Of a stretch of DNA of 41,847 nucleotides, positions 17,065 through 32,586 are shown piece after piece. Within the stretch, counting starts at the first letter, position 1. Every line of letters begins with the position of its first letter. The position numbers were made by a program, and so were the translations under genes. The notes below the pieces were generated by a model, which was not told the DNA's origin, made no database searches, and was given only the letters and a program-made list of their open reading frames with translations. The stretch comes from Flavobacteriales bacterium (lineage in GTDB: Bacteria; Bacteroidota; Bacteroidia; Flavobacteriales_E; Vicingaceae). The stretch covers positions 1 through 41,847 of the forward strand of contig PALM01000009.1 in the NCBI GenBank assembly GCA_002706365.1. The letters run 5' to 3'.

Positions 17065-17799
17065 ATGTGGAGTAATAAGCAAGAAAAATTAATTCGATCA
17101 CTGCAGCAGAAGAAGTACCGCAAACAGCATTCGCTCTTTGTGGTAGAAGGTTTGAAGTCGGTAAATGAATTGATAAATAGTGATCTAGAGATAGAATATA
17201 TCTATACAACAGATTCTATTCAGTTTAATGATTTGGAAAAGATAGACATTGAGGCAACTATGATCAGTGAGCTTCAAATGAAGTCGATCTCATCTTTGAC
17301 CAACCCTCCAGGAGTGCTAGCTGTAGCCAAAATTCCAGAACAAGAGTTAATTACTGGAGACTTAGTTCTTTATCTTGATGAAGTAAGAGACCCAGGTAAC
17401 CTGGGTACGATCATTAGATCAGCAGAGGGTTTTGGTGTTTCTCAATTGGTTCTTTCTCCAAATTGTGTCGACCCATTTTCTCCGAAGGTAGTTCAGGCAA
17501 GTATGGGATCATTATTTCGATTGCCTTTGGCTGTTGAAAGCTTTGAATCACTCTATAAAAGGCTTTCAAATGATTATTCATTCTACGCTGCCGATATGGA
17601 TGGAGAGAACCTTCATCAATATGAACTAGGAATGCCAGCAGTGATTGTAATGGGAAACGAATCTCAAGGCTTGTCGGACGATATTCAATCTAAGATCAAA
17701 ACACTGTCAATCCCAATTGCAAAAAGCTTGGAGTCTTTGAATGTAGCAGTTTCTGCTGCAGTTATTCTAGCTGAGTTTAGGCGTCAATTTCCGCTTTGA
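17065..17799 (+). CDS. SpoU/TrmH-family RNA 2'-O-methyltransferase
   Basis: 244 residues. An N-terminal substrate-binding domain (KYRKQHSLFVVEGLKSVNELI) precedes the SPOUT catalytic domain with all three motifs: motif 1 LDEVRDPGNLGTIIRSAEGFG (about 109-129), motif 2 MGNESQGLSDD and motif 3 IPIAKSLESLNVAVSAAVIL. It methylates a ribose 2'-OH in rRNA or tRNA using SAM; the target base (RlmB-like G2251 or another) cannot be read from the sequence. Its 3' end overlaps the convergent COG2509 gene by 23 bases. Confidence 0.92.
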   Translation: MWSNKQEKLIRSLQQKKYRKQHSLFVVEGLKSVNELINSDLEIEYIYTTDSIQFNDLEKIDIEATMISELQMKSISSLTNPPGVLAVAKIPEQELITGDLVLYLDEVRDPGNLGTIIRSAEGFGVSQLVLSPNCVDPFSPKVVQASMGSLFRLPLAVESFESLYKRLSNDYSFYAADMDGENLHQYELGMPAVIVMGNESQGLSDDIQSKIKTLSIPIAKSLESLNVAVSAAVILAEFRRQFPL

Positions 17800-19366
17800 T
17801 GGCTCTTGCTAGCTTCATTCCATCCATGGCTGCGGAGACAATTCCACCCGCATAACCTGCACCTTCACCTGCAGGGTAGAGGTTGAGCATCTGAGGATGA
17901 TTAAGACCGTCTCTATCTCTTGGGATCTTTACAGGAGAAGAAGTTCTACTTTCAACACCCACAACAACGGCTTCATCACTGATAAAACCCTTCATGCGTT
18001 TGCCGAAGAATTTGAATGCCTCTCTTAAACTATCGTGAATAAAGGCCGGTAGGATCTCTGAAAGCGGATGTTCTTTCAAACCCGGGAAATAAGAGGCATT
18101 TGGAAGACTACCACTTTTGCCACCATTTACAAAATTGCTCATGCGTTGAGCGGGCGCAATCTGGCCTAATTCAGCATGTTCATTGACGGCTTTAAAAGCT
18201 TTCTGCTCGATCTCCGACTGGAATTGCATAGCGGCCAGATCTCCGCTGAATTTTTTGCCCCAATCTTTGGCATTCACTTCTACCACCATTCCTGAATTGG
18301 CGTAGGGATTGTTTCTTCTGGAGGGAGACCAGCCGTTGGTGACGATCTCGGCCGGAGCAGTAGCGCAAGGTGCAATGATTCCCCCCGGACACATACAAAA
18401 TGAATACACGCCTTTGTTCTCAACTTGCTTTACCAATTTGTATGAAGCAGGTGGGAGGTATTTGGCTAAAGCATCGCCATATTGGATCTGATTGATCAAG
18501 CTTTGTGGATGTTCAATGCGCACTCCCAATGCAAAAGGCTTTGCTTCGATCTGGATCTTATGTTTTTCAAGAAGTTGGAAGATATCTCTAGCTGAATGAC
18601 CAGTGGCTAGAATGATCTGTTTTACTGGGATCCATTCTGAACCATTTATCTCAATGGCTTTAATGCGATCGGATTCGACTTTTAAGTCGGTGAGTTTCCT
18701 TTCAAAATGCACTTCTCCTCCACAGGATCGAATGAATTCTCTCAATTCTTCGATCAGTTTAGGGAGCTTATTGGTGCCAATATGAGGATGCGCATCAACC
18801 AATATACCTTCCTCAGCTCCAAATTGAACTAAAGCTCTTAATACTTTATCGACATCACCTCTTTTCTTGGAGCGTGTATATAGTTTACCATCCGAATAGG
18901 TTCCTGCACCTCCTTCACCAAAGCAGTAGTTAGATTCCGGATTAACGACCTGTTCTTTATTCAGTTTGGCCAGGTCCCTTCTTCTTTCTCTAACTGCTTT
19001 CCCTCTTTCAAAGATTACAGGCTTAAGTCCATTCTGAATTAACTCCAAGGCGGCAAACAATCCGGCCGGACCGGCACCAATGATATGCACTTCTTGAGCA
19101 TTGCTCACATTATTGGGAGGGAAGGGGAAATCCACATCTTCTAATTTGCCTTCAGTGGAATATTGGATACGCAGATTCACTTTAACCTGCTTTGATCTTG
19201 CATCAATGGATCTGCGAATTACTTTGCAATCGGCTATATCAGCCTCAGGAACACCACCATGCTTACTGCAGATCGATCTGAGTTTTTCGATTGCATCATT
19301 GCCTTCAGTGTCCTGAAGTTCATATGCTGCTTGCGCAGATAGTTGGAGATCAATGGTCAATTGCAT
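17777..19366 (-). CDS. COG2509-type FAD-dependent dehydrogenase
   Basis: 529 residues. An N-terminal ferredoxin-like module of about 90 residues (VIRRSIDARSKQVKVNLRI) precedes the dinucleotide loop IIGAGPAGLFAALE (about 95-108). Then come NYCFGEGGAGTYSDGKLYTR, HPHIGTNKLPKLIEELRE, ILATGHSARDIFQLL and a C-terminal AGEGAGYAGGIVSAAMDGMK that closes the FAD site. This matches the uncharacterised flavoprotein group COG2509, related to HI0933/GidA-like oxidoreductases. The substrate is unknown. Divergent from the EEP nuclease gene with 81 bases between starts; convergent overlap of 23 bases with the methyltransferase. Confidence 0.88.
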   Translation of the reverse strand: MQLTIDLQLSAQAAYELQDTEGNDAIEKLRSICSKHGGVPEADIADCKVIRRSIDARSKQVKVNLRIQYSTEGKLEDVDFPFPPNNVSNAQEVHIIGAGPAGLFAALELIQNGLKPVIFERGKAVRERRRDLAKLNKEQVVNPESNYCFGEGGAGTYSDGKLYTRSKKRGDVDKVLRALVQFGAEEGILVDAHPHIGTNKLPKLIEELREFIRSCGGEVHFERKLTDLKVESDRIKAIEINGSEWIPVKQIILATGHSARDIFQLLEKHKIQIEAKPFALGVRIEHPQSLINQIQYGDALAKYLPPASYKLVKQVENKGVYSFCMCPGGIIAPCATAPAEIVTNGWSPSRRNNPYANSGMVVEVNAKDWGKKFSGDLAAMQFQSEIEQKAFKAVNEHAELGQIAPAQRMSNFVNGGKSGSLPNASYFPGLKEHPLSEILPAFIHDSLREAFKFFGKRMKGFISDEAVVVGVESRTSSPVKIPRDRDGLNHPQMLNLYPAGEGAGYAGGIVSAAMDGMKLARAIKAEIDA

Positions 19367-19447: not shown

Positions 19448-20770
19448 ATGTCGTTTCGAATTTCAGTTACATTCCTTTTAGTCTTCACTCTACTCAGTTC
19501 AGCAGCCATAGCTCAGAGTTTGGATACCATCAGAGTGATGTCTTATAATCTCCTCAACTACAGGAATAACAGCATAAGTGGATGCAGCAACACAAATAAC
19601 AATCCCTCTACGAAAGAGAATAATCTAAAGACGATCATTGACTTTTATCTTCCAGAGATATTAGTGTGTAATGAAATTGGGACATCTGATCCAGCGGCTT
19701 CCTTTAGAATCCTTCAGAATGCATTGAATCAAAACGGAAGGACCTATTACAATTTGACCAATATGCAGACCGGAGCGCGACAAAATAACAATGGCTCTGC
19801 AACTGGAAATATGATCTATTGGGATACTAGAAAACTGGAATTGCACAGCAGTGATTATATCGAGTTCGATCCCTTTAATAGGGCACTAGTTCGTGTGATC
19901 GATCTATATCGCCTATATTATAAAGACCCCAATTTGGCTGTGCATGGAGATACCATCTTCATCAACATATTCATCGCACATCTGAAAGCGGGAAATACCA
20001 CTGCAGACCGAAATGAGAGAGATTGGGCAACGGATGCGGTAATGGCCTATTTAGATAGTAACAACATCAGTGGAAATTATCTTTTTGCCGGCGACTTGAA
20101 TTTATACACAGCCACCGAAAATGCCTATCAAAACTTGATCAATTATTCAGTACCTGCCCTGAGATTCTATGACCCTATAAATGTGGCAGGTAACTGGTCG
20201 AATAACAGTCCTTTTGCAATAGTTCATACCCAATCCACTAGAACTACTGGCGGTTGCGGAGCAGGAGGAGGTATGGATGATCGCTTCGATTTTATACTCG
20301 CTTCTGATGAGATCATGAATGGCACTGACAGCCTGCGCTATATTAATAACTCATATAAGGCTCTTGGTCAGGATGGATTTCGATTCAACGGCTCACTTAC
20401 AGGCACTCCTACTAATAATTCAGCTCCTACAGCTGTCTTACAGGCCATGGAAAGTTTAAGTGATCACTTAGCAGTGCAGATCGATTTGGAGTTGAGTTAT
20501 CCTCAATCAACTTCATTGGCGGAACAGACTGAAGCCCTGAATATTGGAATTAATAATCCAGTTGCTGAATTGTTGTATATTAGGGTCGAAGATCCACAAC
20601 AAATTAATCGACTTCAACTGCTGAACATGGCCGGACAAGTCATTTGGGAGTTACGTCCTGAAGCTAGGCAAATCGAACAAGATTGCAGTGATCTTAAGGC
20701 TGGTGTTTACTTCATTAAAGTAATTGGAAATCAAGGTGAAGTGAGCATTCAAAAATTAATAAAGATTTAA
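19448..20770 (+). CDS. Secreted endonuclease/exonuclease/phosphatase-family nuclease with T9SS sorting domain
   Basis: 440 residues. Signal peptide about 1-22 (ending AIAQ). The EEP domain spans about 28-348 with the catalytic set complete: N34 in SYNLLNY, E76 in CNEIG, HLKAG at 178-182, GDLN (D216, N218), RFDFIL (279-284) and SDH (338-340). These residues bind the metal and the scissile phosphate in DNase I-like enzymes. The last 80 residues (NIGINNPVAELLYI to IQKLIKI) form a T9SS type A sorting domain, so the protein should be exported by T9SS to the surface or medium. Whether it cuts DNA, RNA or a phosphoester is not decided by sequence. It heads the plus-strand surface cluster, 129 bases before the next gene. 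Confidence 0.88.
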   Translation: MSFRISVTFLLVFTLLSSAAIAQSLDTIRVMSYNLLNYRNNSISGCSNTNNNPSTKENNLKTIIDFYLPEILVCNEIGTSDPAASFRILQNALNQNGRTYYNLTNMQTGARQNNNGSATGNMIYWDTRKLELHSSDYIEFDPFNRALVRVIDLYRLYYKDPNLAVHGDTIFINIFIAHLKAGNTTADRNERDWATDAVMAYLDSNNISGNYLFAGDLNLYTATENAYQNLINYSVPALRFYDPINVAGNWSNNSPFAIVHTQSTRTTGGCGAGGGMDDRFDFILASDEIMNGTDSLRYINNSYKALGQDGFRFNGSLTGTPTNNSAPTAVLQAMESLSDHLAVQIDLELSYPQSTSLAEQTEALNIGINNPVAELLYIRVEDPQQINRLQLLNMAGQVIWELRPEARQIEQDCSDLKAGVYFIKVIGNQGEVSIQKLIKI

Positions 20771-20899
20771 CATTGAATCGATTGCCTTAGTGGGCTGATT
20801 TTCGATTTTTGTTGTGCCAATTTTCCAGTCAAGGCACCTATCCCTTTCTATGGGATTGATAAACGGCGGACTGATAAGTATTGTACTTAAAGAACGCTA

Positions 20900-23026
20900 A
20901 TGAGGTTATTCTACTTGATACTGGGCTTAATCGCCAGCTCCCTACTTAGGAGCCAGACCTCATTTGATGAAAAGGTAACCACCGCTTCCAATGTAAGATT
21001 AGCAGTAACCAATGTAGGTACATTTGGTAATGCCTTTAGAGGCTATAGAGATGGTACTTCTAATGAATCCTGTGAATATCCGGCAGGTTCAGGTATTGAG
21101 CATCTTTTTGAATCGGGCATCTGGATTGGCGGACTTCAGGATGGAACTCAAGTTAGAGTATCCACTGCTGCTGTAGATGCTCCTCAAGGGTATCAAACCG
21201 GTAATTCAGGTTTTGAATTCACAGCGGCTCCGGGGGCTCAGTTAACAGAGCGTTCCAGCTTAAGAGATAGTCCATTCTTTACTCCGGAAGCAATTAGTCA
21301 GCAAGATTTCGTTTGCACTTTCACTGATCGAAACTTGATCATTCCAGGCACCAGTACACCAATTGTCAATCACACCAATCCACTTTTTGTACAGGTCAAT
21401 TTGAAGACCTATAACTTCAACTTCTCATTCAGTGATTTTGTGGTCTTTGTGGATATGGAGATCATCAATTTGGGAAATCAAGGTAGTGCCAATGTGATCG
21501 ACAGTCTATTCTTTGGTCTATGGGGGAATACTGTAGTGAGAAATATCAATGTCACTCCTCCTGGTTCGGGTGGTGCTGCTTTTTATAATAAAGGAGGCAA
21601 TGGTTATGACACCTCTCTGCATATGGCATATTGTTATGATTATTCAGGAGATGTTGGATTTACAAATACCTATGTAGCACAGAAGTTTTTAGGTGCTGAA
21701 GATAAATTTGGATTCCATCACCCTAGATTGGATTCCACATTCAATTCGAATTACAATGTGTGGCAGTTCAATAATCCCGGTACAGGGGTTTTTCAAGCAC
21801 CGGCTGGAGAGAACCAACGTTATCAAAAGCTAAGTAGAGGAGTAGAAGATGATCCTTGTTGGACAATTGACAACAATTGCGGTGGAGGAACCTTTCCAGA
21901 TCAATTGAATAGAGAAGGAAATAGGTCTGATTTAGTATCTATTGGTCCTTTTAGAGATTTCCGAAGCGGAGATACCATCAAAGTTGCTTACGCCTTTGTT
22001 TTGGCGAATAAGCTCGAAGACGGCAATTCTTATACTGCGAACACCGAAGCTCAAAGAGCAGAGCTGATCTCCAATGCACAAAGAGCTCAAACAGCATACA
22101 ATGGCGAAGATGCAAACTTCAATGGCGTCTTGGATGAAGGAGAGGATAAGGATAACAATGGGGTGATCACTCGTTTTATTTTACCTGCACCTCCAGAAAT
22201 CCCAAAAACAAGAGTTGAAGCAGAAGAAGGAAAGATCAATGTGTATTGGACTGATAATTCAGAGCGTTCGGTTGACCCAATCTCGAGAATAGAGGATTTT
22301 GAAGGATATCGAATTTATTTATCGAAGCTTGGTTTTGATGTGGTAGGAGTTCCGAACCTATTAGAGGATTTGGTTCAAGTTGGAGAGTATGATATTGCCA
22401 ACAATGGCTTTGCCAATGAGGTGGGCTTGGATGCAATCCAGCTTGAGGATCCGGTGACATTTGAAGGAGATACGAATGTATATCGATACAGATATACCAT
22501 AGACAAGGTTTTGAATGGTTGGCAGTATGCGATTGCTGTTTCGGCTTTTGATAGAGGTAATGATGAGCAGAATCTCGATCCACTAGAGTCATCCTTATTG
22601 GGAAATAACTTCAGAGTATTTCCGGGCAAGGCTGTCAATGACGACATAGAGAAGAGTGCACCTTATGCTTATCCTAATCCATATTATTTTGGCGCCTCAT
22701 GGGAAGGGAGAAGTAACTTCCAGGAACAGAGTCGCAAATTGATATTTGCCAACCTTCCGGAGCGTTGCTATATCAGAATATTTACTCCAGCGGGAGATCT
22801 TATTGATGAGATCTATCACGATCAAGATTATAAGGGAGAGGATATTAGATGGTACCAAACATTTGGAGCAGAGAATTCTGAAGAGAATGTATTCTCAGGA
22901 GGCGAGCATGCATGGGATCTATTGTCCTCGGCCACGCAGATCATAAGCAGAGGAGTATATGTATTTGCAGTGGAAGATCTAGAGACCGGAGAAGTGAGAA
23001 AAGGAAAATTCACAATATTAAAATAA
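20900..23026 (+). CDS. Large secreted surface protein with Fn3-like and FlgD-like C-terminal domains
   Basis: 708 residues; I do not recognise the N-terminal part as a named family. Signal peptide about 1-19 (ending LLRSQ). Residues 30-390 are beta-rich with DFVVFVDMEIINLGNQG and cysteine-containing loops (CWTIDNNCGGG). Residues 404-421 (DANFNGVLDEGEDKDNNG) look like calcium-binding EF/dockerin-type loops. An Fn3-like domain follows (about 436-552, GKINVYWTDNS ... FEGYRIYLSK). The end (YPNPYYFGASWEG from 591, then RIFTPAGDLIDEIYH and SRGVYVFAVED) is the FlgD-like Ig sorting-type domain seen on T9SS cargo. Inferred to be displayed at the cell surface. Downstream genes are co-directional. Confidence 0.75.
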   Translation: MRLFYLILGLIASSLLRSQTSFDEKVTTASNVRLAVTNVGTFGNAFRGYRDGTSNESCEYPAGSGIEHLFESGIWIGGLQDGTQVRVSTAAVDAPQGYQTGNSGFEFTAAPGAQLTERSSLRDSPFFTPEAISQQDFVCTFTDRNLIIPGTSTPIVNHTNPLFVQVNLKTYNFNFSFSDFVVFVDMEIINLGNQGSANVIDSLFFGLWGNTVVRNINVTPPGSGGAAFYNKGGNGYDTSLHMAYCYDYSGDVGFTNTYVAQKFLGAEDKFGFHHPRLDSTFNSNYNVWQFNNPGTGVFQAPAGENQRYQKLSRGVEDDPCWTIDNNCGGGTFPDQLNREGNRSDLVSIGPFRDFRSGDTIKVAYAFVLANKLEDGNSYTANTEAQRAELISNAQRAQTAYNGEDANFNGVLDEGEDKDNNGVITRFILPAPPEIPKTRVEAEEGKINVYWTDNSERSVDPISRIEDFEGYRIYLSKLGFDVVGVPNLLEDLVQVGEYDIANNGFANEVGLDAIQLEDPVTFEGDTNVYRYRYTIDKVLNGWQYAIAVSAFDRGNDEQNLDPLESSLLGNNFRVFPGKAVNDDIEKSAPYAYPNPYYFGASWEGRSNFQEQSRKLIFANLPERCYIRIFTPAGDLIDEIYHDQDYKGEDIRWYQTFGAENSEENVFSGGEHAWDLLSSATQIISRGVYVFAVEDLETGEVRKGKFTILK

Positions 23027-23114
23027 TCAGGAAACACACACTTAATTCATTGATCGTCTTTTTGTTAAACTAAAAATTACCCTTAAACCTAATCTAAATT
23101 AAATTGAAACTATT

Positions 23115-25301
23115 ATGAAAAAAGTTCTATTATCTGTCTTCGGAATTTGTTTGTCGGCCTTGCTTGGGGCGCAGACATACCCTTACGTAGACGTAAATCA
23201 GATTGGTTTTGTAAGTCAGATGGATTTGCAAAACTGTAACGACTCTTCACAGTATCTAGGGGATACAGTGGTGACAAGAGGAGTAGTAATTGTAGACGGA
23301 AATCTTTCTGAAGTGGCATCTAGCTCAGTTCAAGGAGGAAGCCGTCCATTCATCTCTATAGTAGATACTGCCTGGAATGGTATATCAGGTGGTCCTTTTG
23401 AAAGTATCATTGTAATGGGAGTTGTGAACTCTACCAATATCCCAGTTTCAGATATCGAGAACGCAGTTGCAGGTGATATTCTTGAAATGACAGTTGAGGT
23501 TTCTGAGTTCAATGGATTGATCCAATTGGCTCCTATCAGCTCTACTTCAGTTCAATTGGTAGGACAAACAAACGCACCTACTTTCAGAACCATTAGCGCT
23601 GGAGATATTCAGGATAATCAGCGTAATAATGTATTGCCAACAGGTGAGCAGTGGGAAGGAGCTTATGTTGAGCTACAGAACATGACCGTTACCAATGTGA
23701 GTATCTTCAGTTCTGGATCTAGATGCGAGTTTACTGTTGCCGATGCAAATGGCAATCAAGTATTGGTAGCTGATAGATATCTACCAATGGTGGTTAACAA
23801 TATCCCTACGGTGAATCCAAATTCACCTGATTCATTCGGAACCCTTGTTCCTCCATCAGTTAACACTGTGTACAATCACATTAGAGGTTTGATCTTCCAA
23901 GATGAGAATGGTTGTCAGGGAGTTAGCCAGTTTGCCGGTGGATACGAGATCAACCCATTCGATTCAACAGATTTTGATAAGGCTGCATCTCCAGCAAATG
24001 TGAGCAATGTGAGAAGAAACCCGTCTGTACCTAATGCATCTCAAACGGTTACAGTTACTGCTGATATCATTGATAATGATGGTGTAGTTACAGGTGCAAC
24101 TCTTTACTATAGCGCAGATACTTCAACTGCTTTGAATCTTTTCCAATCTGTAGCGATGACGAACACTACTGGAATCGAATATTCTGGAACAATTCCAGCA
24201 TTTCCATTGGATTCAATCGTGCGTTATTACATTGAAGCAACTGATGACAGTTCTAATGTGACTACTAGTAGTGTAGAGTACTATACTGTTAGAGCTAATG
24301 GTGCTACGATCATGGACATCCAGTATACATTACCTGGAACTCCAACCACTTCTTCACTTGAAGGCGATACTGTTACAGTAACTGGTATTGTTACTGCTTC
24401 ATATCAGGCTGGTGATCTGGGTTACTTGTATATTCAAGACCCATCTGCTACCCAGTATGCAGGTATCTTCGTTGAAGGTGGTCCTACAGCAGTTTTCGGA
24501 TTCAATAGAGGTGATGAGGTTACTATCACTGGTGTAGTTGCTGAGCAGTTTGGTTTTACCAAGATCCAAGCTACCAATGCGGTTGCTACTTCTAATACAG
24601 GTACAATCACTCCAGTTGTTCTTGATCCTTCTGATGCTACATATTTCGGTTCAAATGGCGCTAGCACTAATGCAGTTGAGCCTTACGAAAGTATGTTGGT
24701 GAGATTTGAGAATCCAATGATGGCCGGACAAGTATGGGTGATCAATCCTGATAGAGGATTTGGTGAGTACACTGTTGGTTCTGGCCAGTCGGCAACGAAC
24801 AGCGCTAGAGTATTAGCTGGTCGTCAGTCTGGTACTTCAGCTCAGTCTTCTTTAGATGTATCTTACATCTCTGATACTGCAGCTTATGGTTCTGGATTGA
24901 ATGTTACTCCAATTCAAGTGAATACTGCAACTTCTATGGATTATCTAGAAGGTATGATGTATTTCTCTTTCAGTAACTTCAAATTGACTCCTAGAAACAA
25001 TGCTGATTTCGGAAACATCTTGGTTTCTCTTGCTGAGCAGCAAGCTAAAGCTCAGGAGTACGAATTGAGCATGTATCCAAATCCAGCTCAGGATAGAGTA
25101 TATCTTGAAGTTGATGAAAATCTTGACTTCGACATCCTAGATGTGGAAGTATTCGATCTGCAAGGAAGAAGAGTGATCTACTCTCAATCTTCAGTTCGTA
25201 GAATGTCTTTGAATCTGGCAGGACTTGACAAAGGTGTATACCTTGTTAAGGTAACTACTAGAGGCGAAGTGGTGAATAATTCAAAATTGGTGATTGAATA
25301 A
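23115..25301 (+). CDS. T9SS-exported protein with duplicated nuclease-type OB-fold modules
   Basis: 728 residues. Signal peptide 1-20 (ending LLGAQ). Module A (about 47-288) has an OB-like strand set GDTVVTRGVVIVDG, then EGAYVELQNMTV and GYEINPFDSTDF. An Ig-like domain (290-395, YYIEATDDSSNVT) follows. Module B (about 413-632) has GDTVTVTGIVTASYQ, YLYIQDPS, GDEVTITGVVAEQFGFTKIQ, YESMLVRFENP, GFGEYTVGSG and FKLTPRNNADF. The module B pattern is that of OB-fold (YhcR-like) regions in large secreted EEP nucleases such as ExeM, but no EEP domain is present here. A T9SS type A domain closes the protein (YPNPAQDRV from 654 to SKLVIE). Third-position T-rich codon use in the second half suggests high expression. 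Confidence 0.82.
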   Translation: MKKVLLSVFGICLSALLGAQTYPYVDVNQIGFVSQMDLQNCNDSSQYLGDTVVTRGVVIVDGNLSEVASSSVQGGSRPFISIVDTAWNGISGGPFESIIVMGVVNSTNIPVSDIENAVAGDILEMTVEVSEFNGLIQLAPISSTSVQLVGQTNAPTFRTISAGDIQDNQRNNVLPTGEQWEGAYVELQNMTVTNVSIFSSGSRCEFTVADANGNQVLVADRYLPMVVNNIPTVNPNSPDSFGTLVPPSVNTVYNHIRGLIFQDENGCQGVSQFAGGYEINPFDSTDFDKAASPANVSNVRRNPSVPNASQTVTVTADIIDNDGVVTGATLYYSADTSTALNLFQSVAMTNTTGIEYSGTIPAFPLDSIVRYYIEATDDSSNVTTSSVEYYTVRANGATIMDIQYTLPGTPTTSSLEGDTVTVTGIVTASYQAGDLGYLYIQDPSATQYAGIFVEGGPTAVFGFNRGDEVTITGVVAEQFGFTKIQATNAVATSNTGTITPVVLDPSDATYFGSNGASTNAVEPYESMLVRFENPMMAGQVWVINPDRGFGEYTVGSGQSATNSARVLAGRQSGTSAQSSLDVSYISDTAAYGSGLNVTPIQVNTATSMDYLEGMMYFSFSNFKLTPRNNADFGNILVSLAEQQAKAQEYELSMYPNPAQDRVYLEVDENLDFDILDVEVFDLQGRRVIYSQSSVRRMSLNLAGLDKGVYLVKVTTRGEVVNNSKLVIE

Positions 25302-25321
25302 TTCAGTTAGACTTTAACAAT

Positions 25322-25349
25322 GGGAGTGCGCTTCGGTGCACTCCCTTTT
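25322..25349 (+). terminator. Intrinsic terminator inside the surface cluster
   Basis: GGGAGTGC and GCACTCCC form an eight-pair stem around GCTTCGGT, followed by TTTTC. It lies 20 bases after the OB-fold protein stop and 10 bases before the next gene. I see no new TAnnTTTG box after it, so the downstream genes probably depend on read-through, which would lower their expression relative to the OB-fold gene. Confidence 0.85.
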
Positions 25350-25359
25350 CAATTTTTAA

Positions 25360-26814
25360 GTGAGAATACTTTTTCTATATATCTTTCTATCTTTTTCATC
25401 CCTAGCTTTTCTAAGCTCATGCAGGGATGAGGGTGATAAAGAGGAGAATCAGGCTCCTGAGACTTCCTTTTCACTTGATGCGATCAACCTTAGTGGAGAA
25501 GATCGCTTGAATAGTATTGTCCGATTAAGCTGGTACGGTAGAGATGCCGATGGTTATGTTAAAGGATATGAGATATCCACTGACCAGATCAATTGGACCT
25601 ATACCACCTCACAAGACTCCACTTTTCAATTTACAATATCTTCGGGTTCAGATACTGTGGATATTGATCTCTATGCAAGAGCCATCGATAATGAGGGACT
25701 TGCTGATCCAACTCCATCTTATCTAAGAGTTCCCATAAGAAATACCGCTCCGGTTATTGAGTTTTCCAATAGTTTGAGCATACCGGATTCTACATTTTTA
25801 GTCGCCACCACAGAATGGACAGCTTCCGACCTTGATGGTGATGAAACCATAACCGATGTTTATCTGAGCATCAATGGTAAAGCATGGTATCCTATGAACC
25901 GATCTGAAAGGATCTTTAGCCTTGTTCCACAGGATTTTAATGCCACTGATACCACATCTGCCTTGATCTATTACGGAAGTAGAACCAATCCTGAAGCACA
26001 ACCAATCGACGGTTTGGTGCTAGACGATACCAACAGGATCTATATCAAAGCAGTTGACCAAGCAGGCTCTGAAAGTAAAGTAGATACTTCAGAGGTCTTC
26101 TTCATGCGCACAAAGCAAAATGACATTCTTGTGGTAGGAGGTGTAGCTTCAGCCCATACTGATTATCTCAATCTGATGAATGCGGTGAATTTGCAGTACG
26201 ATTTCCTCAATCTTACTATAGCGAATGGTATTTACCGTCCAAACCTCTGGAACATTACATTCCGTCTGCAGCTTTCTTTTTACGATAAGTTGTTTTTCTA
26301 TTCAGATGAAACTACTTTCTTGAATCCTTACACCAATCTAAGATTGTTGCTATTGGAATATGCCGCAGCTTCACTTCAAGAATATGCGAACTCAGGAGGA
26401 AAGTATTTGATCTCCACATCTTTCGACTGGAACACTAATATAGATGGATTTAGAGGAGTACTTCCTATACAGTCGGTCTCTACCAAGAACTACGGTGATG
26501 CTAGATTGTATGGCGACTCAGCTGTACTTCCCGAAATAGCAAGCTTCCCCACTCTTAGCACTTCTTCATTTGCACTGAGTGGAGTAGGAGTGTTCAACAT
26601 TGATTCCACAGATACTGAAGTGCTCTATACAGCCCAGCTTTCAGATCGAAGTAGAACCGTACCATGGCCAGATACAGAAATCGTAGCTTCGGCTCGAAGG
26701 CTGAATGGAAATTTGAATCAGATCTTCTTCAGCATGCAGCTATTTGAACTGGATGGAGACCAGCTGGCTTTAGAAGCTCTATTCGACCAAATCTTTAATG
26801 TAGAGTTTAACTAG
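25360..26814 (+). CDS. Surface-cluster lipoprotein with Ig/Fn3-like repeats and a possible GATase-like C-terminal domain
   Basis: 484 residues, GTG start. A lipoprotein signal ends LSSC (C21) and is followed by acidic residues (CRDEGDKEEN), which in Bacteroidota often marks export to the outside of the outer membrane. Residues 34-128 and 131-250 are two Ig/Fn3-like domains with DxDG motifs (RDADGYVKGYEIS; ASDLDGDETITDVY) that may bind calcium. From about 255 (DILVVGGVASAHTDYLNLM) the chain switches to an alpha/beta pattern, with DKLFFYSDET and LLLEYAAASLQEYANSGGKYLIS, reminiscent of class I glutamine-amidotransferase/ThuA-like folds. That last assignment is tentative and no catalytic Cys is evident. 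Four bases separate it from the TonB receptor gene. Confidence 0.7.
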   Translation: MRILFLYIFLSFSSLAFLSSCRDEGDKEENQAPETSFSLDAINLSGEDRLNSIVRLSWYGRDADGYVKGYEISTDQINWTYTTSQDSTFQFTISSGSDTVDIDLYARAIDNEGLADPTPSYLRVPIRNTAPVIEFSNSLSIPDSTFLVATTEWTASDLDGDETITDVYLSINGKAWYPMNRSERIFSLVPQDFNATDTTSALIYYGSRTNPEAQPIDGLVLDDTNRIYIKAVDQAGSESKVDTSEVFFMRTKQNDILVVGGVASAHTDYLNLMNAVNLQYDFLNLTIANGIYRPNLWNITFRLQLSFYDKLFFYSDETTFLNPYTNLRLLLLEYAAASLQEYANSGGKYLISTSFDWNTNIDGFRGVLPIQSVSTKNYGDARLYGDSAVLPEIASFPTLSTSSFALSGVGVFNIDSTDTEVLYTAQLSDRSRTVPWPDTEIVASARRLNGNLNQIFFSMQLFELDGDQLALEALFDQIFNVEFN

Positions 26815-26818
26815 AAGA

Positions 26819-29638
26819 ATGAAACAGATCCTATCCATACTGTTATTGCTCTTTACTTCCCAGCTTCTAGCTCAGAATACGGGTAATCTTCAGGGGCAAG
26901 TTACAGATGCGGAAACCGGTGAGCCTCTCATTGGAGCAACTGTGGTTGTGGTGGGAACTTACAATGGAAAAAGCACGGATCTAGATGGTAGATTTTACTT
27001 TGAAGACATCAAAGCAGGCGATTACTCCATCAAATTCACTTACATAGGTTATACCGAGAAGATCTTTAACGGAATTAGAATCGAGGCTGGTGAAACCAAA
27101 ATACTCGATGCTACTATGTCGCCCAGTAGCACCGATCTTGAAACAGTTGAGGTAGTTGGTGAACGAAATCTAGTTAATCTGGAATCAGCTAAATCAGAGG
27201 TCACTATCAGTCAGGAAGAGATCAGCCAAATGAACGTGCGAGATGTACAAGAGATTGCATCCATGCAAACCGGTATCAATAAGACTCCAGACGGACTGCA
27301 AATCAGGGGTGCTAGGGTATATGAGACCAAATACCTTATTGATGGAGTATCAGCTCAAGATCCACTTGCAGGAACGGGATTTGGAGTGGAAGTGGCTTCC
27401 AGTTCAATTGGCAAATTGAATATCATCACTGGTGGTGCAGGTGCCGAATATGGAGATGGATCTTCTGGAGTGATCTCTACAACGATAAGGGAAGGTGGAG
27501 ATGAATTGCAAATCGCAGGGAGCTGGCAAAGAGATAACCTCGGCATTAACACCAATGATGCTGACTCCTGGAATACGGACATTGTTGAACTATCTATAGG
27601 CGGACCGGTACCCGGAACAAAGAAGAAGATGGGCTTCTTTACAAACTTTACCGCCAACATGAACGATACCTATTTCGGTTCAGAAGCCAATCAATTGAAT
27701 AGTTCCCTCTTTAGCAACAATCCAGATTTCTGGGCTCCCCGTCAGGACAATCGATTTACACACACCATAAAACTATCCTATCAGTTAAAAGGAGGGAGTA
27801 GCATTAGCATTACCAATCAGCATAGTTTGAATATCAACCAGAACTCTAGGACTCTTCAGATCGTTGGTTTTGATGCTATTCTTCAGCCTGGATTCCAGTT
27901 TGAAAGAAGCTTGAATCTGGATAATGCCACCACCTACACGCACCATTCAAATTTAACGGTACTCAATTACAAGAAGGTGATCAATGATCAGTGGTTGTTT
28001 AAGGCAGCTCTAGGCCGACTCTTTACAAATCTTAGAGCAGATGCCAATGGAAGGCCATTCCGCGAAGAAACGATCGATCAGATCTATAATGAAGCCTCAA
28101 TTGTGACTGATCCGGTAAGCATATTCAATCCTGGAGATCCAATACAGTTTGTACTTCCAGGTCCGGGTTTGGTAAATAATGGTGGAATCACCCCTGTATG
28201 GCATGATCACTATGCTAGGGAGTATACAATCAGCGGTAGGTTTAGCAGATATTCAGAGAATCAAAATAATGTGCTCACCTTCGGTTTTGAACATATTCTA
28301 AAAGAGTATCAATGGGTTGATGTAAGTAGTCCTTGGATTGGTGCACCAATTGTGATCGATTCGAATACTACCTCTCCTACAACCAGCATAGGTTCATCGA
28401 ATGATATTTGGAAGGTAAACCCTTTCAATGGTGCATTATTCATCTCAGATGAGATATCCTATAGAGGAATTATAGCTACCCTCGGTATGAGATTGAGCTA
28501 TTGGGCTCCTGGTAAGTTTGCCGATAATGCGGTAGAGAACCCTCAATCGCCGGTGATCGATCAGGTTAGAACTGATTATAACAACAATACTTTTGGTCTA
28601 TTCGGATACCGAATGAAGGCTAGAATTCTTCCTTCTATCAATGTTTCTTTCCCTGTTACGGAGAATAATGTGCTTTACTTCAACTACGGTCACAAAATGC
28701 GTTTGCCACATCCTAGATTCGTCTATGCAGGCCTAGACCCGGTTTATCAAGATAGATCATTCCTTTCTAACTTAGGTAATCCAGACATCAATCCTGAAGT
28801 AAACATCTCTTATGAGGTAGGTTACAAGACACAGATCAATAGAGATATTGGGCTAACCCTTGCCGCTTTTAACAATAACCGTTTTGATTACATCGTGCAA
28901 AGAAGGGTGATCGTAGAAGATCAGACGGGCCGACCGGTGACTAAGCGTATGTTCATTAATCAAGACTATGCTAGGATCTTTGGAATGGAAGCAGGCTTAT
29001 CATGGAGATTTGCAAAGTACTACCGAGCCTTTGTAAATGCCACTTATCAGGTGGCTAGAGGTAAGTCGAACACCGCAAGAGAATCCGGCTTGCAGATCGA
29101 ACAGAATGGAGCGGTCTCCTTAACCACCGAGCAGTATCTTGCATTTGACCGTCCATGGGATATCACGGTTGGATTTGTATTCAACAGTGATAGCACATTT
29201 AAGATAAGAGGTAAAGCCCTTGATGGAATCAATGTATTCATCTCAGTGAATTATCAATCTGGTCTGAGATATACTCCTTATGAGCAAGATGGCCAAAATG
29301 ATCTGGGAAGACCATTGTTTGTAAGACTTGATGAGCAATATCTCTCAGAGATTTCAAAGGCTTGGTGGCGGTCCGACTTGAAGATCAGTAAGACCTTTAA
29401 GTTTGAGAATAACACCGGTCTAACCCTTAGTATAGAAGTTAGAAACTTATTGGATTATAAGAATGGACAGATCATCAACCCGATTACGGGGAGAGCCTAT
29501 GAGGATGGGGATGATGTGCCGAATGATTGGAGGGATCCAAGGTATGTTGGTCCATTTGAAACTGGTGTGCCACCAAATGATCCAGCTAGATATTTACAGC
29601 CAAGACAAGTGCTTTATGGCATAGCCTTTAGATTTTAG
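26819..29638 (+). CDS. TonB-dependent receptor with carboxypeptidase-regulatory-like domain
   Basis: 939 residues. Signal peptide about 1-19 (ending LLAQ). A CarbopepD_reg-like beta sandwich (about 22-107, LQGQVTDAETGEPLIGATVVVVG ... FTYIGYTEK) precedes the plug (about 115-230, QTGINKTPDGLQIRGARVYETKYLIDG and the GGAGAEYGDGSSGVIS end). The 22-strand-type barrel ends in VLYGIAFRF with terminal phenylalanine. No SusD homologue follows, so it is not a classical SusCD pair. The substrate is unknown. The gene ends one base before the PorV/PorQ-like gene (TAG then A then ATG). Confidence 0.93.
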   Translation: MKQILSILLLLFTSQLLAQNTGNLQGQVTDAETGEPLIGATVVVVGTYNGKSTDLDGRFYFEDIKAGDYSIKFTYIGYTEKIFNGIRIEAGETKILDATMSPSSTDLETVEVVGERNLVNLESAKSEVTISQEEISQMNVRDVQEIASMQTGINKTPDGLQIRGARVYETKYLIDGVSAQDPLAGTGFGVEVASSSIGKLNIITGGAGAEYGDGSSGVISTTIREGGDELQIAGSWQRDNLGINTNDADSWNTDIVELSIGGPVPGTKKKMGFFTNFTANMNDTYFGSEANQLNSSLFSNNPDFWAPRQDNRFTHTIKLSYQLKGGSSISITNQHSLNINQNSRTLQIVGFDAILQPGFQFERSLNLDNATTYTHHSNLTVLNYKKVINDQWLFKAALGRLFTNLRADANGRPFREETIDQIYNEASIVTDPVSIFNPGDPIQFVLPGPGLVNNGGITPVWHDHYAREYTISGRFSRYSENQNNVLTFGFEHILKEYQWVDVSSPWIGAPIVIDSNTTSPTTSIGSSNDIWKVNPFNGALFISDEISYRGIIATLGMRLSYWAPGKFADNAVENPQSPVIDQVRTDYNNNTFGLFGYRMKARILPSINVSFPVTENNVLYFNYGHKMRLPHPRFVYAGLDPVYQDRSFLSNLGNPDINPEVNISYEVGYKTQINRDIGLTLAAFNNNRFDYIVQRRVIVEDQTGRPVTKRMFINQDYARIFGMEAGLSWRFAKYYRAFVNATYQVARGKSNTARESGLQIEQNGAVSLTTEQYLAFDRPWDITVGFVFNSDSTFKIRGKALDGINVFISVNYQSGLRYTPYEQDGQNDLGRPLFVRLDEQYLSEISKAWWRSDLKISKTFKFENNTGLTLSIEVRNLLDYKNGQIINPITGRAYEDGDDVPNDWRDPRYVGPFETGVPPNDPARYLQPRQVLYGIAFRF

Positions 29639-29639
29639 A

Positions 29640-30659
29640 ATGAAGAGTTTATTTACATATCTGTTTCTATTCGCAATCTGTTTCAGCAGTGGATTAAAGG
29701 CACAGCTGATTCCAAACTTTGGCGGACAAAGGGCTGGTTTATCCACTTTGAGCTTTCTAAAGAACGATATCAATCCTCGTTCAGCTGCTATGTCAGGAGC
29801 TAGTGTTGCATTGGACAGCGACCCTTTCGCACTGTATACCAATCCGGCTGCAGCCGCAGACCTATCATCACCAACAACAGCTATAAGTAACTATACAGTG
29901 GGTGCGGGTATTCAACAATCATTTGTTTCTGTTACAATACCGAGAAAAAGTAGGGAAGCATCATACGGTATCTCTTTGAATATGCTTAATAGCGGTGCCA
30001 TGGATGTGAGAACTGAGTTCCAACCGGAAGGTACAGGGGAGAAGTTCTATGTAACCAATCTAGCTGCTGGATTCACATACTCTCAAAAACTTTCTGATAT
30101 GTTCGCGGCTGGAGTTACCTTGAAATACATCTATGAGCAAGTATCCGACTTCACAAATTCAACAGCTGCTGCTGATGTGAGCTTCCTGTACACTACAGAT
30201 TATAAAGACCTGAAGTTTGCGGTGATGGTGAGGAATTTTGGTGGAAGTTCAGCACTTGACGGGGGAGAGCTGATCACAGATTTCAATCGCCCAGCTCAAT
30301 ATGATGCCGATAATTATTCTGTCCCAACGGTCTTCAGTTTAGGTGCAACCATGATTCCATGGAAAGAAGATCAGCAGTCACTTTTAGTGAGTGTGCAATT
30401 GAATCACCCCAACGATAACGCAGAGAATTACAGATTTGGATTGGAGTATGAGTATTTGAAATTACTTTACCTAAGAGCTGGATATATGCTGAATGTAGAT
30501 GGACAGTCGCTCCCAACTTTGGGTTTGGGAATCCGTCATCGCTTCTTTGGCTATCCAATGAACATTAGTTATGCTGCAAATCCGACAGATTATTTAGGTC
30601 TGCAACATACTGTTGGTTTTACATTCACTTTTAATCAAGAGGGTCGTGAGCGTGAATAG
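29640..30659 (+). CDS. PorV/PorQ-family outer-membrane beta-barrel protein
   Basis: 339 residues. Signal peptide about 1-21 (ending LKAQ). Mature N-terminus LSFLKNDINPRSAAMSGASVALDSDPFALYTNPAAAADL is the hallmark block of the PorV/PorQ (FadL-related) family. Then come paired amphipathic strands and a closing HTVGFTFTFNQE. PorV helps release and attach T9SS cargo; PorQ-like paralogues are common and their roles are mostly unknown. This copy lies between the TonB receptor and the NHL lipoprotein rather than beside porU, so it is probably a cluster-specific paralogue. The last codons overlap the following gene's start. Confidence 0.85.
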   Translation: MKSLFTYLFLFAICFSSGLKAQLIPNFGGQRAGLSTLSFLKNDINPRSAAMSGASVALDSDPFALYTNPAAAADLSSPTTAISNYTVGAGIQQSFVSVTIPRKSREASYGISLNMLNSGAMDVRTEFQPEGTGEKFYVTNLAAGFTYSQKLSDMFAAGVTLKYIYEQVSDFTNSTAAADVSFLYTTDYKDLKFAVMVRNFGGSSALDGGELITDFNRPAQYDADNYSVPTVFSLGATMIPWKEDQQSLLVSVQLNHPNDNAENYRFGLEYEYLKLLYLRAGYMLNVDGQSLPTLGLGIRHRFFGYPMNISYAANPTDYLGLQHTVGFTFTFNQEGRERE

Positions 30660-31851
30660 TCAGCTATATAAAAAATACTTCCTACTCATTGGCATATTAT
30701 CAATGCTGGGCTTGATGAGTTGTGAGGATTATTTGGGTGAAGAAACGGATCTCGACTTTATTGAAGTCCCAACACAGACTTACAGAGAAGTAGCTTATGT
30801 TCCGGTACAACCAATACTCAACCAGTTCATGGAGCCCACTGACATTATCGCTGGATTTGATGAGCTGATCTATGTGGTTGATAGTGCAACACAAGAAGTA
30901 ATTGCAATGGATGAGAGTGGCAGGGAGCTGGCTAGAAAGTTTGTAAGAGGAGCAAGGGCTATTGCTCAAGATAGAGGTTTGGATTTGCTAGTGATTGGCT
31001 TAAAAGACACCACTGTGAACAGTACCCCTTATAGTCAATCCTGTATCTATAGACTAGATCTAAGCTCTCCAGACGGTTTCGGTTTACAGTATGCCAGCAT
31101 TGAGAACGAACTAATTCATCCTTTTTATGGAGGAATTAGTGTGATCAATAGTGGCAACGCTGCGGCTAGATTCAACCGAATTAGCGTGTTGTGGGATAAT
31201 ACTTATTATGTCACTCGCAGCGGTCCCAGGGTTTCCACAACACTACCGGATGATGCTGTACTTCTATTCGATGCACAAGACGAATTGATCACACCAATTT
31301 CTATTGCAAGTCGCTCAGGCGGACAATTCAACGATTTCTTCAAGAAGCCCTTTTCAATTACCACATTGGCAAAACCCCCACAGCTAAGTGTGGATCAACG
31401 AAACGACTTTATATACAGCTCTTTAGATCCAAATGGTGTTTTAAAAGTGCAGTATATAGAGAATCAGTTTTCAGTAGATGGAAGTGCTTATCTGCCTAAA
31501 ACAGATTGGAGTGCAGATACTTCATTAGCAGATAATTTCATCAATGAACCATTTCGATTCAAACAGCCTGTAGGATTGGAATTTGCTGGAGATGGAACCA
31601 ACTATATATTCGTTGTAGACAGAGCAACTGATTCATTGTATCAGTTTACTTCGAACGGATTGGAAGGGGTTCAGCCTCCTCCTGCATCAGGTCAAACCAA
31701 GTATGTGAAAACTTCATTTGGAGGAACAGGTATTGGGCCAACTCAATTCAACAAGCCTTCTGCTGTGGCCTATAAGGATGATATCCTCTATGTTGCTGAT
31801 CAGGGAAATGGAAGGATTCTGAGGTTTACCCTCACTCTGGATATTCGGTAG
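30652..31851 (+). CDS. NHL-repeat/beta-propeller lipoprotein of the surface cluster
   Basis: 399 residues. GTG at 30652 overlaps the stop of the PorV/PorQ-like gene; GTG at 30646 is an alternative. The lipoprotein signal ends GLMSC (C24), followed by EDYLGEE. Propeller-like strands follow: IIAGFDELIYVVDSATQEVIAMDESG, then QPVGLEFAGDGTNYIFVVDRATDSLYQF, and a clear NHL repeat GPTQFNKPSAVAYKDDILYVADQGNGRILRF at the end. Probably an outer-membrane lipoprotein acting with the receptor or PorV-like protein; no enzyme motif is seen. Convergent with porT, 11 bases apart. Confidence 0.78.
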   Translation: MNSQLYKKYFLLIGILSMLGLMSCEDYLGEETDLDFIEVPTQTYREVAYVPVQPILNQFMEPTDIIAGFDELIYVVDSATQEVIAMDESGRELARKFVRGARAIAQDRGLDLLVIGLKDTTVNSTPYSQSCIYRLDLSSPDGFGLQYASIENELIHPFYGGISVINSGNAAARFNRISVLWDNTYYVTRSGPRVSTTLPDDAVLLFDAQDELITPISIASRSGGQFNDFFKKPFSITTLAKPPQLSVDQRNDFIYSSLDPNGVLKVQYIENQFSVDGSAYLPKTDWSADTSLADNFINEPFRFKQPVGLEFAGDGTNYIFVVDRATDSLYQFTSNGLEGVQPPPASGQTKYVKTSFGGTGIGPTQFNKPSAVAYKDDILYVADQGNGRILRFTLTLDIR

Positions 31852-31862
31852 TATTCTGCTGC

Positions 31863-32567
31863 TTAACCTTCAAATAGGAAGGTGACAAAGAACATTTTTG
31901 GGAGAATACGATCGATTGGAGTCGACAGCTCGGTATTATCAGGAATAAGCGCATCATCCAAAGTGTACGACATCTTTGCTTCTATGGCAAATTTGAAATA
32001 AGGAAGGAAGAAATCGGCTCCAATACCTACTTCAGCTGAATACGTATTCTGCTTGAGCTTTATGATCGATTCAGGGATGTCTTCATTATTCACATCTTCA
32101 TTTGAAGCAAGGTCTATTGAGTATTTAACTCCACCTATTACATAAGCTGCAAAATTATTTAGACGAGCAGAACGGTATTTCATTAGGATTGGAAAGTCTA
32201 AATAGGTCGATTCAACAACCCTTTGGACTACTTCTACATCTCCAGTCGGATCTACGAAGGTGAAGTCGAGATTTCTTTGGCCAAAAACCAAGGTTGGGAG
32301 AAATCTGATCCCGAAGTATTGATTCAAATGTATTTCAGATACAATTCCAAGGTTGAAACCAGATTGGTTGATCACTTCTATATTGGCAAGTGAATCTTGC
32401 ACACCAATGGGTTTTCTGTGGAGTGAAAATCCTCCATTGTTAATACCCAATGAAAAGCCAAAGTGTACTTTCTTTTGATCGAATCGTTGCAAATTCTCCA
32501 CTTTGATCTTCTGTGAGAAAGCAAAGCAGGAACTGAATAAAAGAATGGTTAGGATTAGGTTTCTCAT
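31863..32567 (-). CDS. porT: T9SS protein PorT (outer-membrane beta-barrel)
   Basis: 234 residues from ATG 32567. The frame could start at GTG 32579, but that codon lies in the promoter box. Signal peptide about 1-19 (ending FAFSQ). The mature part is an eight-strand-type barrel with the PorT pattern: HFGFSLGINNGGFSL, NLGIVSEIHLNQYFGIRFLPTLVFGQR, STYLDFPILMKYRSARLNNFAAYVIGGVKY and a terminal FFVTFLFEG. PorT is a core gene of the Por/T9SS secretion system in the outer membrane. ubiE directly upstream is its usual neighbour in flavobacteria. Confidence 0.9.
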   Translation of the reverse strand: MRNLILTILLFSSCFAFSQKIKVENLQRFDQKKVHFGFSLGINNGGFSLHRKPIGVQDSLANIEVINQSGFNLGIVSEIHLNQYFGIRFLPTLVFGQRNLDFTFVDPTGDVEVVQRVVESTYLDFPILMKYRSARLNNFAAYVIGGVKYSIDLASNEDVNNEDIPESIIKLKQNTYSAEVGIGADFFLPYFKFAIEAKMSYTLDDALIPDNTELSTPIDRILPKMFFVTFLFEG

Positions 32568-32578
32568 ATCTATCGCCA

Positions 32579-32586
32579 CAAACGTA
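32579..32586 (-). promoter_or_regulatory. -7 promoter box of porT (TACGTTTG)
   Basis: Minus strand TACGTTTG, a perfect TAnnTTTG between the ubiE stop and the porT start. Initiation near 32574 leaves about seven leader bases. It supports the ATG at 32567 and means porT can be expressed apart from ubiE. Confidence 0.6.

Follow-up and report, generated by a model that had tools for sequence, protein, structure and literature searches.

A six-gene surface system conserved across Bacteroidota, with an exchangeable nuclease slot and a possible role in the use of extracellular nucleic acid

Results

Gene content of the cluster

We analyzed a stretch of 41,847 nucleotides from a Flavobacteriales bacterium (GTDB class Bacteroidia, family Vicingaceae; contig PALM01000009.1 of assembly GCA_002706365.1), hereafter called the window. 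An earlier note, made from the sequence alone, had described in it seven co-directional genes linked to the type IX secretion system (T9SS) and had proposed that they form one outer membrane machine acting on extracellular nucleic acid or phosphoesters. The seven genes do all lie on the + strand, from 19448 to 31851 (Table 1). We found that six of them constitute a core that behaves as one all-or-none system across Bacteroidota, a conclusion that is well supported. The seventh, which encodes a nuclease or phosphodiesterase of the EEP superfamily, fills an exchangeable and optional slot beside that core.

The distances between consecutive genes are 129 bases (EEP to 708-aa protein), 88 (708-aa protein to OB), 58 (OB to lipoA), 4 (lipoA to receptor), and 1 (receptor to PorV-like), and the GTG start codon of the NHL gene overlaps the stop of the PorV-like gene, the overlap being about 8 bases. 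The earlier note had listed gaps of 10, 4, and 1 bases followed by an overlap; the last three values were confirmed, and the 10 bases before lipoA proved to be 58, with a strong hairpin in them. A Sec or lipoprotein signal could be read in every one of the seven proteins, as had been claimed. None of the seven matched the PADLOC models of anti-phage defence.

Table 1. Genes and predicted regulatory element of the cluster in the window
Feature	Coordinates	Strand	Basis
Secreted EEP-superfamily nuclease/phosphodiesterase with T9SS tail (variable slot)	19448..20770	+	Por_Secre_tail, MnuA model, catalytic residues
708-aa secreted surface protein (core)	20900..23026	+	Without known family
728-aa OB-fold protein with two DUF5689-like modules (predicted) and T9SS tail (core)	23115..25301	+	ExeM/NucH match, Por_Secre_tail
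Hairpin and T-rich tail between OB and lipoA genes (predicted terminator/attenuator)	25322..25345	+	10 bp, 7 GC pairs
FN3-like surface lipoprotein, lipoA (core)	25360..26814	+	Lipobox LSSC at 18-21
TonB-dependent receptor, CarbopepD_reg and Plug (core)	26819..29638	+	Pfam
PorV/PorQ-family outer membrane barrel (core)	29640..30659	+	NF033709
NHL-repeat (propeller-like) surface lipoprotein (core)	about 30652..31851	+	NHL 24 bits; GTG start

Identity of the encoded proteins

The 708-aa protein had no match in Pfam, NCBIfam, or the PDB, and no T9SS C-terminal sorting domain was found in it; its export by T9SS is presumed. The "FlgD-CTD" label that the earlier note had attached to it is unsupported by any Pfam or NCBIfam model and was dropped. 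In nearly all positive genomes it gave a single match.

The OB protein matched the ExeM/NucH model with 64.2 bits at positions 422-640, over the N-terminal part of the model only (the full-length cut-off is 300 bits), and its identification as an OB-fold protein was thereby upheld, the region being of the ExeM/NucH type. It carries a Por_Secre_tail of 50.8 bits (Pfam cut-off, 27), and no catalytic domain was found in it with Pfam or NCBIfam. Both of its halves aligned with DUF5689-like segments of neighboring PLD nucleases (hhalign, 98% each). The Pfam model itself, PF18942 (DUF5689), had no match in the window protein; at another locus (L196), the gene that occupies the OB position matched it with 45.8 bits. 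On this sequence evidence, the OB protein is predicted to carry two DUF5689-like modules.

The EEP protein has a Por_Secre_tail of 33.2 bits (cut-off, 27) and a weak match of 23 bits to the MnuA nuclease model. Its catalytic residues N34, E76, H178, D216, N218, D281, D339, and H340 are present and conserved in the homologues of the family, and Exo_endo_phos was above its cut-off in homologues from loci L197, L209-L211, L214, and L042. With all the EEP catalytic residues in place, the family call of the earlier note holds.

Plug (PF07715, 37.9 bits) and CarbopepD_reg (PF13715, 65.7 bits) are present in the receptor, which lies below the SusC/RagA cut-off (TIGR04056, 60.6 vs. 368 bits). Neither lipoA nor the NHL lipoprotein matched SusD in Pfam or NCBIfam, and there is no other recurrent neighbor. 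The receptor is therefore one without SusD, as had been noted. lipoA had no Pfam match and is FN3-like by eye only.

The barrel is above the cut-off of the PorV/PorQ family (NF033709, 156.3 vs. 90 bits) and below those of the equivalogs, both PorV (NF033710, 65.1 vs. 250) and PorQ (NF033711, 80.3 vs. 220); with the BamG model it scored 12.9 bits (cut-off, 250). The PorV/PorQ-like description is thus correct at the level of the family. In the profile search of the PDB, the sole match of the barrel was the solved PorV chain of F. johnsoniae, the matches of the OB protein were limited to deiminase Ig domains and T9SS tails, and lipoA and the receptor had no match.

Retention of the core within the class

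The occurrence of the core was surveyed across 295 evenly sampled genomes of the class, and orthologs of the receptor, the PorV-like barrel, and the OB protein were checked in 80 of them (53 positives and 27 negatives). The 708-aa protein, lipoA, and the NHL lipoprotein were each present in 62 of the 295 genomes, about a fifth of the sample, and 58 genomes had all three; the pairwise overlaps were 60, 60, and 59 of 62, with 13 expected. The receptor ortholog was found in 52 of the 53 positives and the PorV-like ortholog, with a wide score gap to its paralogs, in 51, and 50 had the OB ortholog; none of the three occurred in any of the 27 negatives. Incomplete assemblies account for several of the exceptions, and in near-complete genomes of about 16 families single core components are hardly ever missing. 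Orthologs of lipoA were present in 19 of 60 relatives.

By tblastn, the complete set of seven genes was recovered in unchanged order at 12 further loci, 11 in the family of the window and one in another family. Many positive families have the genes dispersed, as the 708-aa and OB genes together, lipoA with the receptor gene (or each alone), and the PorV-like gene with the NHL gene; in most dispersed genomes the NHL gene adjoins the PorV-like gene. The core set is complete even when it is dispersed, and therefore hitch-hiking in an operon does not explain its retention. No other neighbor family recurs that could add a further gene to the core. In two of the dispersed genomes, lipoA stands alone beside a phosphoribosylglycinamide formyltransferase (purN-like) gene (L044:8098-9561 and L045:8893-10380).

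The T9SS gene sprA was present in 53 of 53 positives. T9SS is at most necessary and is not specific for the system, because sprA also occurs in 25 of the 27 negatives.

Conservation in other classes of the phylum

Outside the class, the 708-aa protein was found in 76 genomes. The gene order of the window (708-aa protein, OB, lipoA, receptor, PorV-like, NHL) was kept in 16 of the 20 loci examined there. The receptor was present in 49 of 50 positives, the lone exception having a broken fragment of the 708-aa protein, and in none of 30 negatives. Positive and negative species occur inside single genera (g177, g190, g193, and g203), as expected of an accessory system that is gained or lost as a block. 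In the tree of the 708-aa protein, the branching matches the families, and the class falls into two lineages.

The earlier note had made its proposal depend on joint conservation beyond close relatives, and this is what we observed, the six genes co-occurring all-or-none across the phylum. The order kept at the 12 further loci, together with this retention, shows that the seven-gene grouping exceeds chance. At two loci, a second TonB-receptor-like gene with CarbopepD_reg lies directly 3' of the NHL gene (L226:2500-5253 and L228:2865-6137).

An exchangeable nuclease slot

In the family of the window and in some genomes of family f5, the EEP gene is located 5' of the core. Elsewhere in f5 it is missing, and an endonuclease-I protein with a T9SS tail is encoded directly 3' of the NHL gene (L078, L083, L085, and L086). 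In the other classes, the gene right after NHL encoded a nuclease or phosphodiesterase in 22 of 41 loci: EEP in nine, PLD with a T9SS tail in eight, and a type I phosphodiesterase lipoprotein in five. One additional locus had the type I phosphodiesterase one gene further from NHL. In families f77 and f95, relatives differ in whether an EEP or a PLD gene occupies this position. These slots are shared by descent among related species, and the independent events are fewer than 22; at least five distinct combinations of enzyme and position could be told apart. The catalytic motifs are intact: the EEP residues and the endonuclease-I motif are kept, and each of the eight PLD proteins has two HKD motifs.

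On the opposite side, 20 genes 5' of the core included no recognizable nuclease. Their products belong to ordinary metabolism, to the envelope, or to the glycosyltransferases; among the nine checked by Pfam were lipoyl synthase, HypF, glycosyltransferases, and a transglycosylase.

The nuclease gene is thus an exchangeable, optional slot and lies outside the invariant core, so that it is not the fixed member for which it had been taken. The earlier note had considered that a core kept without both its nuclease and its OB gene would speak against it; of the two, the OB gene is retained with the core and the nuclease is not. Three further observations concern this slot. Large T9SS proteins with lamin-tail domains are encoded beyond the EEP slot at two loci (L197:5489-11792 and L215:5711-10642). 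Locus L197 also holds an endonuclease-I protein with DUF5689, that is, more than one nuclease per cluster. In one genome of family f82, the position after NHL is filled by a 409-aa protein without a Pfam family (L212:9356-10582).

A hairpin behind the OB gene

In 13 of the 13 scorable loci of the family, a hairpin rich in GC and followed by a T-rich tail lies 6-20 nucleotides past the OB stop codon. Its sequence differs in most of these loci, and its position is kept in many loci across the phylum. Overall, it was found in 30 of 44 loci, compared with 1 of 180 positions behind the remaining genes of the operon as far as PorV, and it never arose in shuffled sequences. The hairpin divides the genes for secreted proteins from the membrane half of the cluster, and it probably tunes the ratio of the two.

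Discussion

A proposed system for extracellular nucleic acid

We favor, with a probability of about 0.55, the view that the six core genes and the exchangeable nuclease form a surface system for the capture, cutting, and TonB-powered import of extracellular nucleic acid. The model that we infer takes in a physical complex, DNA or RNA as its substrate, import as the direction of transport, and an effect of the hairpin on expression. The 708-aa protein and the T9SS-tailed OB protein, whose modules would be suited to nucleic acid, would catch an extracellular polymer, most likely DNA. The two lipoproteins and the PorV-family barrel may assemble on or beside the TonB receptor, which would bring the polymer or its fragments into the periplasm. 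The secreted nuclease or phosphodiesterase would cut the polymer first, as glycosidases do in polysaccharide-utilization loci (PULs), and the hairpin would allow the secreted half to be expressed above the membrane half.

The slot is filled by unrelated nuclease and phosphodiesterase families, and this strengthens the nucleic acid or phosphoester reading. Nutritional scavenging fits best with the variable nucleases. We also propose, more tentatively, that the set is a dedicated, pilus-free, TonB-powered nucleic acid importer of the outer membrane of Bacteroidota, serving nutrition, transformation, or both, in which surface OB proteins and a PorV-type barrel would pass DNA or RNA on to the TonB receptor. 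The idea of a single nucleic acid machine in the earlier note has gained from the presence of the system throughout the phylum and from the recurrence of unrelated nucleases, and it has lost the nuclease as a constant member.

Several points weigh against the view that we favor. Two of the core proteins, the 708-aa protein and lipoA, are without a known fold, and the AlphaFold models of both, made with one relative (L047), are uninformative (mean pLDDT, 29.7 and 36.2). No nuclease stands beside the core in about half of the loci of other classes or in the dispersed genomes, so that cutting may not belong to the core function. T9SS cargo is common, so part of the adjacency could be opportunistic. 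The p-values of co-occurrence ignore shared ancestry, and the case therefore rests on the retention pattern.

Alternative explanations

An unlikely alternative, although the one that we rank highest, is natural transformation, with an outer membrane competence machine that draws intact double-stranded DNA through the TonB receptor to ComEA/ComEC and a nuclease that merely nicks or trims. Riemerella anatipestifer, which lacks pilus homologues, requires for natural transformation the pair RA0C_RS04920/RA0C_RS04915, a DUF5689 surface protein and an adjacent CarboxypepD_reg outer membrane protein (PMC8459023), and the window likewise pairs a CarboxypepD_reg receptor with DUF5689-like modules. This was the one paper in the literature searched that mentions DUF5689, and the parallel is drawn at the level of reported domains. 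The Riemerella pair consists of two genes rather than six, no PorV-like barrel and no NHL or FN3 lipoprotein were reported with it, and homologues of RA0C_RS04915 were reported in Flavobacteriaceae only (PMC8459023). Transformation is impaired in tonB mutants, but one of the two tonB effects was put down to iron starvation (PMC8383284). ComEA-like HhH proteins are present in system-positive genomes and equally in negative ones; therefore, they indicate no specific link of the system to competence, and we rejected them as a discriminator. A variable secreted nuclease also suits digestion better than transformation.

The main alternative as to substrate is a broader scavenging of organic phosphorus by a phosphodiester-utilization locus acting on phospholipid headgroups, teichoic acids, or similar compounds, to which we give a rather low probability. 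EEP, PLD, and type I phosphodiesterases, all of them found in the slot, can cleave phosphoesters other than nucleic acid. In Flavobacterium, depletion of phosphate induces the PUS loci I-IV, which combine phosphodiesterases with TonB receptors, lipoproteins, and T9SS proteins, and it induces endonuclease-I proteins as well (PMC8115612). On the other hand, nucleic acid is suggested by the OB/DUF5689 modules and by endonuclease I, and no phosphatase, Pho regulator, or PusD recurs beside the core. Less probable still is an apparatus for surface assembly or display without import, in which the receptor-like barrel would be a scaffold, the PorV-like protein would shuttle the two secreted proteins, and the lipoproteins would anchor them. 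It draws on the PorV-family member of the set, on the retention of the core without a nuclease in many genomes, and on the precedent of BamG and BamH in the BAM complex of Flavobacterium (PMC12611786), yet the receptor keeps its Plug, its carboxypeptidase-regulatory domain, and many invariant residues, and clean loss of the system inside genera sets it apart from essential assembly machines. Finally, we consider it very improbable that what the core imports or displays has nothing to do with phosphoesters and that the nucleases, as T9SS cargo, came by chance to lie in a neighborhood of secreted proteins. About half of the cores have no nuclease beside them, which would suit such an account, but unrelated nuclease and phosphodiesterase families turn up repeatedly at one end of the operon and none was found among the 5' neighbors.

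Comparison with known systems

Sus-type PULs resemble the window set in having a TonB receptor, surface lipoproteins, and exchangeable secreted enzymes that cut a polymer. The window set differs from them in the lack of SusD, in a receptor far from the SusC/RagA cut-off, and in nucleases in place of glycosidases, and the PorV-family barrel and the OB-fold surface proteins are extra. By analogy, the system appears PUL-like in its logic, yet it is not a PUL; its nuclease slot would be the same logic applied to nucleic acids.

In the PUS loci, TonB receptors stand beside phosphodiesterases and lipoproteins, and PUSIII has T9SS proteins and no SusD, as in the window (PMC8115612). No PorV-like barrel, NHL lipoprotein, or OB/708-aa pair is listed for them, and they have other lipoprotein families, an S41 peptidase, and FecR/sigma regulators (PMC8115612). 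The extracellular DNases ExeM and NucH share an OB-type domain, related to their N-terminal part, with the window set, where an EEP nuclease is encoded nearby; in these DNases OB and EEP are in one chain, whereas the window encodes separate proteins. PorV and PorQ of T9SS belong to the same barrel family as the window barrel, which falls far under both equivalog cut-offs. The Bacteroidota BAM is similar in make-up, with a larger barrel that is surrounded by surface lipoproteins and a FadL-type barrel (BamG, BamH, and BamM in Flavobacterium; PMC12611786), but the window set is without BamA, its barrel is remote from the BamG model, and it is dispensable within genera.

In the literature searched, which left out most subscription papers and preprints, no account of the six-gene set was found. 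If the proposal is true, it names genes by which DNA or fragments of it would cross the outer membrane in Bacteroidota without pili, as well as genes for feeding on extracellular DNA, and it bears on DNA uptake in bacteria without type IV pili. The system is present in many genomes of other classes besides those of the class surveyed.

Surroundings of the cluster

A promoter scan of the Bacteroidetes type gave one match in the window, below chance expectation, and matches of the sigma-70 type were at chance level; neither was retained. The T9SS component gene porT/sprT (NF052311, 208 bits) lies on the opposite strand at 31863-32579, convergent with the cluster and 12 bases beyond its last gene, and a convergent arrangement is also seen in locus L029, about 1 kb off. 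Upstream, a divergent gene for an FAD-dependent oxidoreductase (17777-19366) is kept as a neighbor in most loci of the family.

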